DNA of 44,407 nt from Methanobacteriota archaeon. GTDB taxonomy: Bacteria > Myxococcota > UBA727 > JABDBI01. The stretch covers positions 1-44,407 of the forward strand of contig JABDBI010000014.1 in assembly GCA_013288705.1 (NCBI GenBank). The letters run 5' to 3'. A program made the translations under genes and the position numbers. Positions 11,286 to 15,549 of the stretch are shown here, in pieces (within the stretch, counting starts at the first letter, position 1; every line of letters starts with the position of its first letter). The notes under the pieces are model-generated. The model was not told the origin of the DNA, made no database searches, and was given only the letters and a program-made list of their open reading frames with translations.

Positions 11286-12479
11286 CTAATAATCGATATT
11301 TGTTGATATATACTTCCGCACCACCCGCTGCGAAATCGTCGTAAGCACCTCATACGAAATCGTCTCACACCACTCTGCTACTTCAACCGCGGTGATTTCA
11401 TCTTCCTCATCCGCGCCAATCAACGTCGCCATTTGACCAAGCGCACAACTGCCCATGCCGAGCTCTTCGATGATATCGCTGACATCGACAACAGTCATGT
11501 CCATGGATACCCGACCCACGATCGGTGCCCGCCGGCCAGCAATCAAAACCTGGCCGCGATTGGAATTCAGCCGATGGTAACCATCGCCATAACCGACTCC
11601 GAGCACGGCGATCTCAGTGTCGCGTTGCGCTTGCCAGGTGCAGCCATAACCAGCAAAAGACCCCTTCGCTATTTGCTTACGCACCACCACTGGCGCAACC
11701 CATTTTAAAATCGGGCGCAAGATCGGAGCAGCGATATCACGTAGGAACGGATTGACCCCATACAACATCATCCCGGGACGCACCCAGAAAGTTTTATTTG
11801 GGAACCTTGTCGGCAGAAAACTCAAAGAGCTATTCACACCGCGCAACACCGCGGCGCTATTCGAGGCATGAATGACCTTCGGGCAAATATTCTCTGTGGC
11901 CAAATAATCCAGCGCTGAGACAAAGAGGTGAATCTGTTCGTTGAGATAGTGATCGTCTTCAGCGTCGGGAGTCGCAAAGTGCGTGCATGCAGCAGCAACG
12001 TGAAGCGCTGGTGTTTCTTTTAACAACCTGATCGTGTGGACATGTGATTGGTGGTCCGCACGAAAGTATAGGCCGTTACGTGACATTCCCGTATCAACAT
12101 CCAAATGCACGTCAAATGGTTTGTCACTGCCACGTAACGTTTCACGCAGGAGGGCAACTTCTTCGGCGCTGGCTATCCACGGTGTAAGTTGATGGTGAAC
12201 CAGATCTTTCACGCCGCGCATCCAATTAGCGCCAGCGGTGATCAGAATGGTTCCCAAAATACCGCGTTCCCGAAGAAAAACACCTTCTTCGAACGTGGCC
12301 ACGCCAAGCTTGTCGATACCTGCAGCGGAAAGCGCTTTGCAAATTTCTACCACGCCGTGGCCATAGGCGTTAGCTTTGACCATGGCGATAAGATCACAAT
12401 GAGGCGCGCATGTCCGCACAACACCAATATTGTGCAGCATGTTTTGGATGTCGATAAAAGCGGTAGTGGGTTGCATCAT
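11286..12479 (-). CDS. alr: Alanine racemase
   Basis: This 397-aa enzyme is PLP-dependent and converts L-Ala to D-Ala for peptidoglycan. The PLP lysine is K35 in MVKANAYGHG. RPGMMLYGVNPF and LGVGYGDGYHR hold the conserved tyrosine segments, and GRVSMDMTVVDV and CETISYEVLT complete the C-terminal beta domain. Length is near the family norm of 360-380, with a slightly longer middle. It begins 8 bp after the RAYT-like gene on the same strand, so the two are likely co-transcribed. The 3' end is flush with the convergent ATPase gene. Two ATGs (12479 and 12476) could serve as start. Confidence 0.95.
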   Translation of the reverse strand: MMQPTTAFIDIQNMLHNIGVVRTCAPHCDLIAMVKANAYGHGVVEICKALSAAGIDKLGVATFEEGVFLRERGILGTILITAGANWMRGVKDLVHHQLTPWIASAEEVALLRETLRGSDKPFDVHLDVDTGMSRNGLYFRADHQSHVHTIRLLKETPALHVAAACTHFATPDAEDDHYLNEQIHLFVSALDYLATENICPKVIHASNSAAVLRGVNSSLSFLPTRFPNKTFWVRPGMMLYGVNPFLRDIAAPILRPILKWVAPVVVRKQIAKGSFAGYGCTWQAQRDTEIAVLGVGYGDGYHRLNSNRGQVLIAGRRAPIVGRVSMDMTVVDVSDIIEELGMGSCALGQMATLIGADEEDEITAVEVAEWCETISYEVLTTISQRVVRKYISTNIDY

Positions 12480-12487
12480 AGTCTAAT

Positions 12488-13453
12488 TTAGGATTCCAAC
12501 TGCAATTTGGCGGATAAACCTGCAGGCCCCAAATTTCTGCCGCGGACAGTTTCGAGGAGTGTTTTAAATGCTTCGTTGGAATCAAGTAAATCGATGCCCT
12601 GGGAGACCAGCCGGCTTACTTGAGCCTTATCACGCTGCAAGAACTCAGCAACGTCTGTGATGGAATGCTCGGCCAGAATCGCTGCGGCTGTGGCAAAAAG
12701 CCTGCGGGCCATGACCAGATCTTGTCTGCGGGATGCCCCAGATAGCTGATGGGTGCGAATATTGAGCAAGAGGGCAACGCGCTTACTTAGGCTTTGCAAT
12801 GATAGACGCCGCTTCGGCTTGATCCCCATGGAGGCCGTAAATATTTTTTCTGTCTTTCCGGTCAAACCAGGAGAAGACTCCGTGACACCGAGGTTATCTT
12901 CTTCCAGGGCAGCGGATTCGACGTAGCGCGCGAATGCTCGCTGTGCGAGCGTGAAATTATCATCAAAGCGTTGAAGCACATCCCAACTATCCAGCATATC
13001 AGCCAAGGGATGCCCAAGGGTGACATACGCACCATGGCTACTCCAATGGTAAATCTCTGGCCGGCGTACCAGTCCATTTCGCACCGGCCAAAGATGTACA
13101 CTGCGAATCACGCTGGCGGCTTCTTCGGGAGAAAATACGATCGATTGAAAGCGCCCCCTGAAGAGATGGCCTCGCCTGCCAAACCTGTTGTTGATGCGCA
13201 ACGTGTGGCTGCAGTGTAGCCGTTGCATGATGCGCGCCAAAGAAAATTTGAGGGGTTTTATAACGAGCCGGATCTCATTTTTTTGCAGACAAAAGCCGTG
13301 AACTTTGGCCATGCGATCCCGCACCATTTGACGCAGCAATTGGATGTATGACTGAAAGTCATCTTCGTCGTAAAAGAGCTGAGCACCGCTGTTGGCCTCG
13401 GCAATCACGAGATGCGGATATCCAATCCAACTGACACGACCCACTCTAGACAC
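12488..13453 (-). CDS. Inactivated REP-associated transposase (RAYT)-like protein with DnaA domain IV-like tail
   Basis: The N-terminal 170 residues match the Y1/TnpA_REP fold, with GYPHLVIAEANSG, then QKNEIRLVIKP, SLARIMQRLHCSHTLRINN, GRRGHLFRGRF and YHWSSHGAYV. In active members the second segment reads NHVHLL (HUH motif) and the third carries the nucleophilic Tyr before the YFN triplet. Here the two histidines are Glu and Arg, and the Tyr position is His, so transposition chemistry should be lost. The C-terminal part (about 220-305) resembles the DnaA DNA-binding domain IV, with RTHQLSGASRRQDLVMARR and then VAEFLQRDKAQVSRLV. Such fusions exist in active RAYT relatives. It begins at a GTG and runs into alr 8 bp later. 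A sequence-specific DNA-binding role is inferred. Confidence 0.8.
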   Translation of the reverse strand: MSRVGRVSWIGYPHLVIAEANSGAQLFYDEDDFQSYIQLLRQMVRDRMAKVHGFCLQKNEIRLVIKPLKFSLARIMQRLHCSHTLRINNRFGRRGHLFRGRFQSIVFSPEEAASVIRSVHLWPVRNGLVRRPEIYHWSSHGAYVTLGHPLADMLDSWDVLQRFDDNFTLAQRAFARYVESAALEEDNLGVTESSPGLTGKTEKIFTASMGIKPKRRLSLQSLSKRVALLLNIRTHQLSGASRRQDLVMARRLFATAAAILAEHSITDVAEFLQRDKAQVSRLVSQGIDLLDSNEAFKTLLETVRGRNLGPAGLSAKLQLES

Positions 13454-13541: not shown

Positions 13542-14390
13542 ATGGCGTCGGGTTTATTCAAATGGGCCAAGCAGCACATTGAACCAGGGCTAGACCCAGA
13601 ACTTCTACAGCGCCTTGAATCTGTGCCTAAAAAAAATCTCAACGCGTTTGGTGTGGATCAATTTGGCTTTGATCCGGAAGTGTTGAAAATTACTTTTCCC
13701 ATCGCGGCGTGGATTTATAAAAACTATTTTCGCTGTGATGTTTTTGGCATTGATAAAGCGCCTGAAGGCCGCAAGCTGGTTATTTCTAACCACTCCGGCC
13801 AGTTACCGTTTGACGGCATGATGATTTTCACGGCGTTTATTTTAGATGCTCTGCATCCTTGTTTTTTGCGAGGCATGGTCGAGCGATGGGTATCTGAGCT
13901 GCCATTTGTGTCGAGCTTTTACGCACGCATCGGACAAATTGTTGGGGAGCCAAGCATCTGCCAAAAACTGCTCGAGGCCAATGAATCGGTTTTGGTGTTT
14001 CCCGAAGGTGTTAAAGGAATCAGTAAGCTTTTTCAGGATCGATATCAGCTCGCCCAATTTGGTCATGGCTTTATGCGCCTCGCTTTGCAAACCAAGACGC
14101 CAATCGTTCCCGTGGCAGTAATCGGGGCGGAAGAGCAGGCGCCAGCCATCGCGAATATTGTGCCTTTGGCAAAGCTGATGAATACGCCGGCCTGGCCGCT
14201 AATTTTTCCGCAGCTCGTTCCAATTCCGATGCCGGTCAAATATCGGATCTATTTTGGCGACCCTATGCTATTTAAGGGCGATGGTTCAGAAGACGACAGC
14301 ATTGTGGGCGGCTATGTGGAGCAAGTGCGACATCGCATTCAGACCATGCTCAATAAGGGTAGACGGAAGCGAAAAAGTATTTTCTATTAG
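13542..14390 (+). CDS. Lysophospholipid/glycerol-phosphate acyltransferase family protein
   Basis: This 282-aa protein belongs to the PlsC-like acyltransferase fold used in membrane lipid synthesis or remodelling. The catalytic block is ISNHSGQLPFDG near residue 87, with His and Asp six residues apart as in this subfamily rather than the classical HX4D. The second block is VLVFPEGVKGISK near residue 150, and VPVAVIGAEEQ follows. There is no clear membrane helix beyond an amphipathic N-terminus, so peripheral membrane association is likely. The substrate is not predictable. It ends 6 bp before the trpS ATG and is divergent from the RAYT-like gene across 88 bp. Confidence 0.85.
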   Translation: MASGLFKWAKQHIEPGLDPELLQRLESVPKKNLNAFGVDQFGFDPEVLKITFPIAAWIYKNYFRCDVFGIDKAPEGRKLVISNHSGQLPFDGMMIFTAFILDALHPCFLRGMVERWVSELPFVSSFYARIGQIVGEPSICQKLLEANESVLVFPEGVKGISKLFQDRYQLAQFGHGFMRLALQTKTPIVPVAVIGAEEQAPAIANIVPLAKLMNTPAWPLIFPQLVPIPMPVKYRIYFGDPMLFKGDGSEDDSIVGGYVEQVRHRIQTMLNKGRRKRKSIFY

Positions 14391-15401: not shown

Positions 15402-15418
15402 CCGCTGCGTGGCGGCGC

Positions 15419-15532
15419 GATTTCCCTCTCCCGCTGGCGGGAGAGGGACCAAGGGTGAGGGTGGGAAGTGGCGACGCGCAACTCATCCACCCTCATCCTT
15501 AATCCTTCTCCCGCCAGCGGGAGAAGGAAATC
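15419..15532. repeat. Paired REP-like palindrome element (BIME-like)
   Basis: Two near-identical GC-rich hairpins face each other, CCCTCTCCCGC/GCGGGAGAGGG at 15424-15447 and CCTTCTCCCGC/GCGGGAGAAGG at 15504-15527. Between them are inverted GGGTGAGGGTGG and CCACCCTCATCC tracts, and ATTTCC/GGAAAT lies at the outer ends, so the whole 114 bp is one large inverted repeat. It fills the gap between convergent trpS and the kinase gene and may also terminate both. Such elements are typically dispersed in many copies and mobilised by RAYT transposases. Confidence 0.85.
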
Positions 15533-15549
15533 TTGGCGTCTCGCCGTGC

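Follow-up and report, generated by a model that had tools for sequence, protein, structure and literature searches.

The window, that is, the whole stretch of 44,407 nucleotides analysed here, comes from a 1.63-Mb, 74% complete assembly of an uncultured member of the Myxococcota. On its minus strand, an intact reading frame encodes a two-domain protein. By name, the records with orthologues of this gene are MAGs of Myxococcales, Deltaproteobacteria, and Myxococcota, apart from one titled only 'bacterium'. The genes and features at the locus are as follows.

12488..13453, minus strand: catalytically dead RAYT-like gene with a DnaA domain IV-like tail; intact open reading frame of 321 residues with a GTG start
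11286..12479, minus strand: alr (alanine racemase), co-directional and 8 bases downstream of the RAYT-like gene; a neighbour only in family f1
13542..14390, plus strand: acyltransferase gene, divergent from the RAYT-like gene and conserved in the same four genomes as alr
13016..13453, minus strand: RAYT/TnpA-REP-like core (residues 1–146), from the structural match to 4er8
13268..13276, minus strand: former HuH motif, now E60-I61-R62, from the alignment of orthologues
13088..13102, minus strand: former Tyr...Asn motif, now S118-V-H-L-W122, from the alignment of orthologues
12533..12805, minus strand: DnaA domain IV-like DNA-binding domain (residues 217–307), from the structural match to 1j1v
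12578..12628, minus strand: helix 276–292, the recognition helix by analogy with DnaA, with K276-A/S/G-Q278-V/I-S280-R281-L282

The reading frame, its strand, and its coordinates in the original prediction were right, the gap of 8 bases to alr was confirmed from the coordinates, and the NEIRLV, GRRGHLFRGRF, and WSSHGAY blocks that it had singled out were all found in the protein. The profile matches are weak: Pfam Y1_Tnp (residues 14–108, E 3e-4) and Bac_DnaA_C (residues 224–281, E 2.5e-5) both lie below the Pfam cut-off, and NCBIfam REP_Tyr_transpos (E 8.9e-7) lies below its own. The only other Pfam matches of the window protein were two weak HTH matches, with no AAA+ ATPase domain; the true DnaA is encoded elsewhere in the genome. 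A sequence-profile search of solved structures gave weak matches only, to DnaA (E 0.12) and to a telomere-binding protein (E 0.02), the latter regarded as a chance hit, and phmmer with the tail alone gave no matches.

The predicted structure backs both domains, a DnaA domain IV-like C-terminus on a RAYT-like fold, as had been proposed. A pattern-based scan of wider genome contigs confirmed eight loci, and the AlphaFold2 input comprised eight sequences, namely the window protein and seven of the eight loci from the genome scan (L049, whose start is cut, was excluded). The model has a pLDDT of 80.2 and a pTM of 0.59, so that the relative placement of the core and the tail in it is uncertain. For the core, the top Foldseek match was the E. 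coli REP-associated tyrosine transposase 4er8 (E 2.2e-5), and the superposition (VIA) spans residues 1–189 with a Z of 15.3 and an rmsd of 2.7 over 155. For the tail (residues 217–307), DnaA domain IV on DnaA-box DNA, 1j1v, superimposes with a Z of 16.3 and an rmsd of 1.5 over 91, and the DnaA-DNA complex 3pvp is also clearly matched.

The HuH, Tyr, and Asn residues are described as catalytic in TnpA-Y1/RAYT enzymes (PMC6006769, PMC8266576). These positions were compared between 12 orthologues and 30 distinct other Y1 relatives, from which 11 duplicate loci had been removed; one alignment of relatives excluded L013, L015, L024, L027, and L029. Both histidines, the Tyr, and the Asn are lost in all 12 orthologues, whereas all four are present in all 30 other relatives. 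In the orthologues, the first HuH position is E, A, Q, or S and the second is R or Y (His in 0/12), S, A, N, W, E, or F takes the place of the Tyr (Tyr in 0/12), and W, Y, or V that of the Asn metal ligand (Asn in 0/12). Alignment with active relatives thus does not restore the histidines or the tyrosine, and no orthologue keeps any catalytic residue. The loss of both motifs in the window protein was correctly predicted, with the HuH reading E-I-R and the Tyr gone. The Tyr position, however, is Ser118 and not His: aligning RSVHLWP with the RYIHLNP of relatives shows that the residue taken for it is His120, which is also present in 15 of the 30 active relatives. The prediction had also missed the loss of the third metal ligand, which is replaced by Trp122. 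The protein is of RAYT descent, yet it lacks the catalytic residues of RAYT membership.

The replacements are not random: R62 occurs in 11/12, E60 in 9/12, and W122 in 10/12 orthologues, and H83 is found in 12/12 compared with 3/30 active relatives. E60/R62, H80, H83, R86, and W122 could accordingly be imagined to make up a new site for binding or catalysis, acting on a nucleotide, an RNA hairpin, or in another reaction, and in the fold search the core bore some likeness to Thg1-like tRNA guanylyltransferases. That likeness, with a Z of at most 7.2, is not relied on here, as values below 8 may reflect only a common fold arrangement, and the residue conservation may also come from packing. Such a new activity of the core is unlikely.

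With a profile of the 12 orthologues, one full-length copy was found in 12 of the 16 genomes of this uncultured order. The four genomes without the gene are one of 0.3 Mb, one of 0.5 Mb, and two assemblies that are 70–73% complete. Across the phylum, 12 of 195 genomes matched at E<=1e-35, all within the order, compared with none of the 179 others. No relative was confirmed in the viral collections, and the only plasmid relative was a Pseudomonas record with 31% identity in the core only. The 12 orthologues are monophyletic with support of 100/99 in a tree of 24 rows, composed of these and 12 other relatives (L022, L023, L025, L026, L027, and L028 are absent from it). An rpoB tree groups family f5 likewise, and both trees keep f1 apart from the other families, the deeper branches being without resolution; for rpoB, G007 is represented by one of its two fragments, G000 and G006 have no row, and the window's assembly is without rpoB. 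These results are consistent with a single domestication of a RAYT/TnpA-REP transposase of the Y1 plus DnaA-C type, no later than the common ancestor of the order.

The reading frame is open in 12/12 orthologues, at 34–54% identity to the window protein. Random decay in relatives, in the form of frameshifts or stops, was looked for and none was found; with the frames open and constrained in 12/12, a pseudogene was rejected. The omega values (Nei-Gojobori) in the 7 of 12 pairs with computable dS were 0.08–0.49 for the whole gene and 0.08–0.59 for the core; they are rough, given the many high dS values and the GC-rich f5 genomes, but lie well below 1 in both core and tail. Mean column identity was highest in the tail (0.67), followed by the core (0.63) and the linker (0.50). 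On these sequence comparisons, the gene is under purifying selection in the core and in the tail. A decaying transposase without function would be suggested by the loss of all catalytic residues, and the survey of Quentin et al. (2018) retained 722 of 924 sequences and read missing core motifs as non-function (PMC6006769). The open, constrained frames argue against decay, as do residues that are invariant specifically in this clade and the retention of the gene in genomes of 1.3–1.8 Mb, and we regard decay as highly improbable. Loss of catalysis combined with selection on the fold and the tail fits domestication as a DNA-binding protein.

The neighbourhood of the gene differs between families. 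The order acyltransferase gene, RAYT-like gene, alr is kept in G000, G002, G004, and G007, and the RAYT-like gene and alr overlap by 4 bases in the last three. For G005, no alr lies at the locus and guaB directly follows the RAYT-like gene. For G011, G014, and G015, the downstream neighbour is a CHAD gene, beside which sits ppk1 or a Ppx gene, and for G008, hisS lies upstream. Thus alr adjoins the gene in 4 of 12 loci, all of one family (f1), and the idea that an operon with alr is the general rule was rejected. Linkage to alr characterises this family and does not explain the retention of the gene. Of the proposed domestication through selection for folding and DNA binding without transposition, the lost catalysis and the selected fold and tail are supported, and the co-option within an essential operon is not supported as a rule for all families. 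The varying neighbourhoods are as expected of a stand-alone regulator rather than a part of an operon; the most conserved of them (alr, CHAD, and hisS) point to no single regulon. In G002 and G007, guaB lies just downstream of alr; with its place directly after the RAYT-like gene in G005, this is a gene string specific to the family.

No upstream operator motif of 7 to 10 nucleotides was shared above shuffles in 11 of the 12 genomes (the contig of G011 ends at the gene), and a promoter scan gave no more matches than shuffles. Among the five f1 genomes, exact 10-mers common to three exceeded shuffles (1–2). These were rejected as an operator, because the genomes are closely related and the stretch runs into, or up to, the adjacent gene.

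The palindromes of the region were the other proposed ligand. The palindromic repeat at about 15415–15536 has 72 matches on both strands in the window's genome (E<=0.01), with nine copies that are 109 bp or longer and at least 90% identical. Elsewhere in the order, 7 matches were found in G004 and 1 in G007, and 13 of the 16 genomes had none (E<=0.001), among them 9 of the 12 genomes with the RAYT-like gene. With matches in just 3/16 genomes, binding to the palindrome at 15419–15532 does not hold as a conserved role, and the repeat was rejected as a conserved ligand. Its abundance, together with the absence of a second Y1 gene at E<=1e-10 in the 74% complete assembly, might suggest that the dead protein still mobilises such REP-like palindromes through unusual chemistry or a partner. 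An active RAYT, however, may sit in the missing quarter of the genome, and no inverted repeats flank the gene: between 12380 and 13640, the search for flanking REPs and inverted repeats gave a single 15-nt inverted pair, both arms of which lie within the gene (window copy only). Mobilisation is thus very unlikely, and even when it is taken jointly with decay the chance remains small. The palindrome forms a REPIN/MITE-like family, and no Y1 partner of it is visible in the incomplete assembly.

Bac_DnaA_C matches the DnaA-like head at E<=0.01 in 9/12 orthologues. R250, R251, R274, K276, Q278, S280, R281, and L282 are invariant in 12/12 orthologues. In an alignment of the head with DnaA from 15 genomes of the order, an R...A-R-R/Q frame is common to both. 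The H-T-T of the DnaA recognition helix reads the DnaA box. At the recognition-helix columns, DnaA has R-D/N-H-T/S-T in 13 of the 15 genomes (G008 and G012 are divergent), whereas the orthologues have R-D-K-A/S/G-Q (R-N-K-S-Q in G010), and the loop preceding the helix is one residue shorter in the head than in most DnaA proteins of the order. From this fixed but different recognition helix, we infer that the head would bind a fixed sequence other than the ordinary DnaA box. Binding to DnaA boxes themselves, as had been suggested, appears unlikely because the helix is changed and the loop is shorter.

These features also bear on a role in replication or the nucleoid, in which the origin, its vicinity, or DnaA-like boxes would be bound by the head, and forks or hairpins by the core, so that replication is modulated. 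The clear structural match of the head to DnaA domain IV is in line with such a factor, and the DnaA-like domain of subclass 2.1 has been proposed to target the replication fork (Quentin et al., 2018; PMC6006769, in its treatment of that subclass). Conversely, the substitution of R-D-K-A/S/G-Q for R-D-H-T-T makes ordinary DnaA boxes doubtful as targets, and the 0.3- and 0.5-Mb genomes keep DnaA without the RAYT-like gene, which places the gene outside the minimal replication set. A replication or nucleoid factor is therefore rather unlikely, though it deserves some weight.

Two further observations concern DnaA in this order. The DnaA proteins of family f2 (L099 and L100, from G008 and G012) are unusually divergent, scoring 159.8 and 149.1 bits, below the cut-off, with a recognition helix of R-D-A-S-T or R-H-P-S-S, which suggests, from the sequences, that origin recognition may be altered in this family. 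In addition, L101, L102, and L103 (G006 and G007) have a DnaA domain IV-like tail in which R-D-H-T/S-T is retained, fused to an N-terminal part that seems to resemble the phage ORF6N domain.

Taken together, the protein is probably a domesticated, sequence-specific DNA-binding regulator. It has lost the whole catalytic centre. The retained folded core probably forms dimers and may still contact DNA or RNA, and the retained DnaA domain IV-like head has a fixed recognition helix of its own. Such a protein would bind duplex DNA sequence-specifically, with neither cleavage nor transposition, and would most likely act in transcriptional regulation, a nucleoid or replication role being less likely. 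A more specific form of this reading is put forward tentatively, with a little less confidence than an even chance would warrant: the lineage as a whole could have become a dedicated regulator that binds DNA with a DnaA-like specificity of its own, in which the formerly hairpin-binding core serves as a dimerisation or effector module, possibly with a new ligand site at E60/R62/H83/W122.

The combination of Y1 and Bac_DnaA_C has already been published as TnpA-Y1 subclass 2.1.2 (Quentin et al., 2018; PMC6006769), which is linked to the TIRYTs named in 2013 (PMC3733652), all of which are said in these accounts to keep HUH and Tyr. The dead lineage shares with this subclass the HUH-Tyr core fold, the C-terminal Bac_DnaA_C/HTH domain, and the lack of REPs around the gene, but differs in having none of the four catalytic residues, in the failure to find flanking inverted repeats around the window copy, and in being kept as a single copy across the order. 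Bac_DnaA_C matches, from weak to good, also occur in relatives that keep HuH and Tyr (L014, L017, L020, and L021 of the Myxococcota, and L030 of G007, from the same family). Compared with E. coli TnpA-REP (4er8), which is reported as active on REP hairpins (PMC8266576), the core fold is alike, 4er8 matching the core only, whereas HuH, Tyr, and Asn are gone. Compared with DnaA domain IV (1j1v and 3pvp), the tail fold is alike and the R-D preceding the recognition helix is retained, but H-T-T is replaced by K-A/S/G-Q and the AAA+ domain was not found.

A search of open-licence papers, partly noisy and no proof of absence, found no publication on conserved catalytically dead RAYTs. The new element is a lineage that is conserved although catalytically dead, an exception to the equation of missing motifs with lack of function. 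The concept of a transposon protein that has lost catalysis and kept nucleic-acid binding for regulation is that of TldR. TldR proteins are described as nuclease-dead TnpB regulators (PMC13418256). The dead RAYTs belong to another protein family, have no known guide RNA, and would share the regulatory role only by our reading of the evidence above; if that reading as a dedicated regulator is true, they would be the TnpA counterpart of the dead-TnpB regulators. Discarding motif-less members of the family as non-functional, as in the sequence selection of the published survey (PMC6006769), can hide conserved proteins of this kind. RAYTs have been called domesticated transposases for the behaviour of their genes, yet they keep catalysis. 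A lineage from which catalysis is completely gone while its gene is under selection offers cleaner evidence of a host function other than mobility, one that is testable by binding-site mapping.
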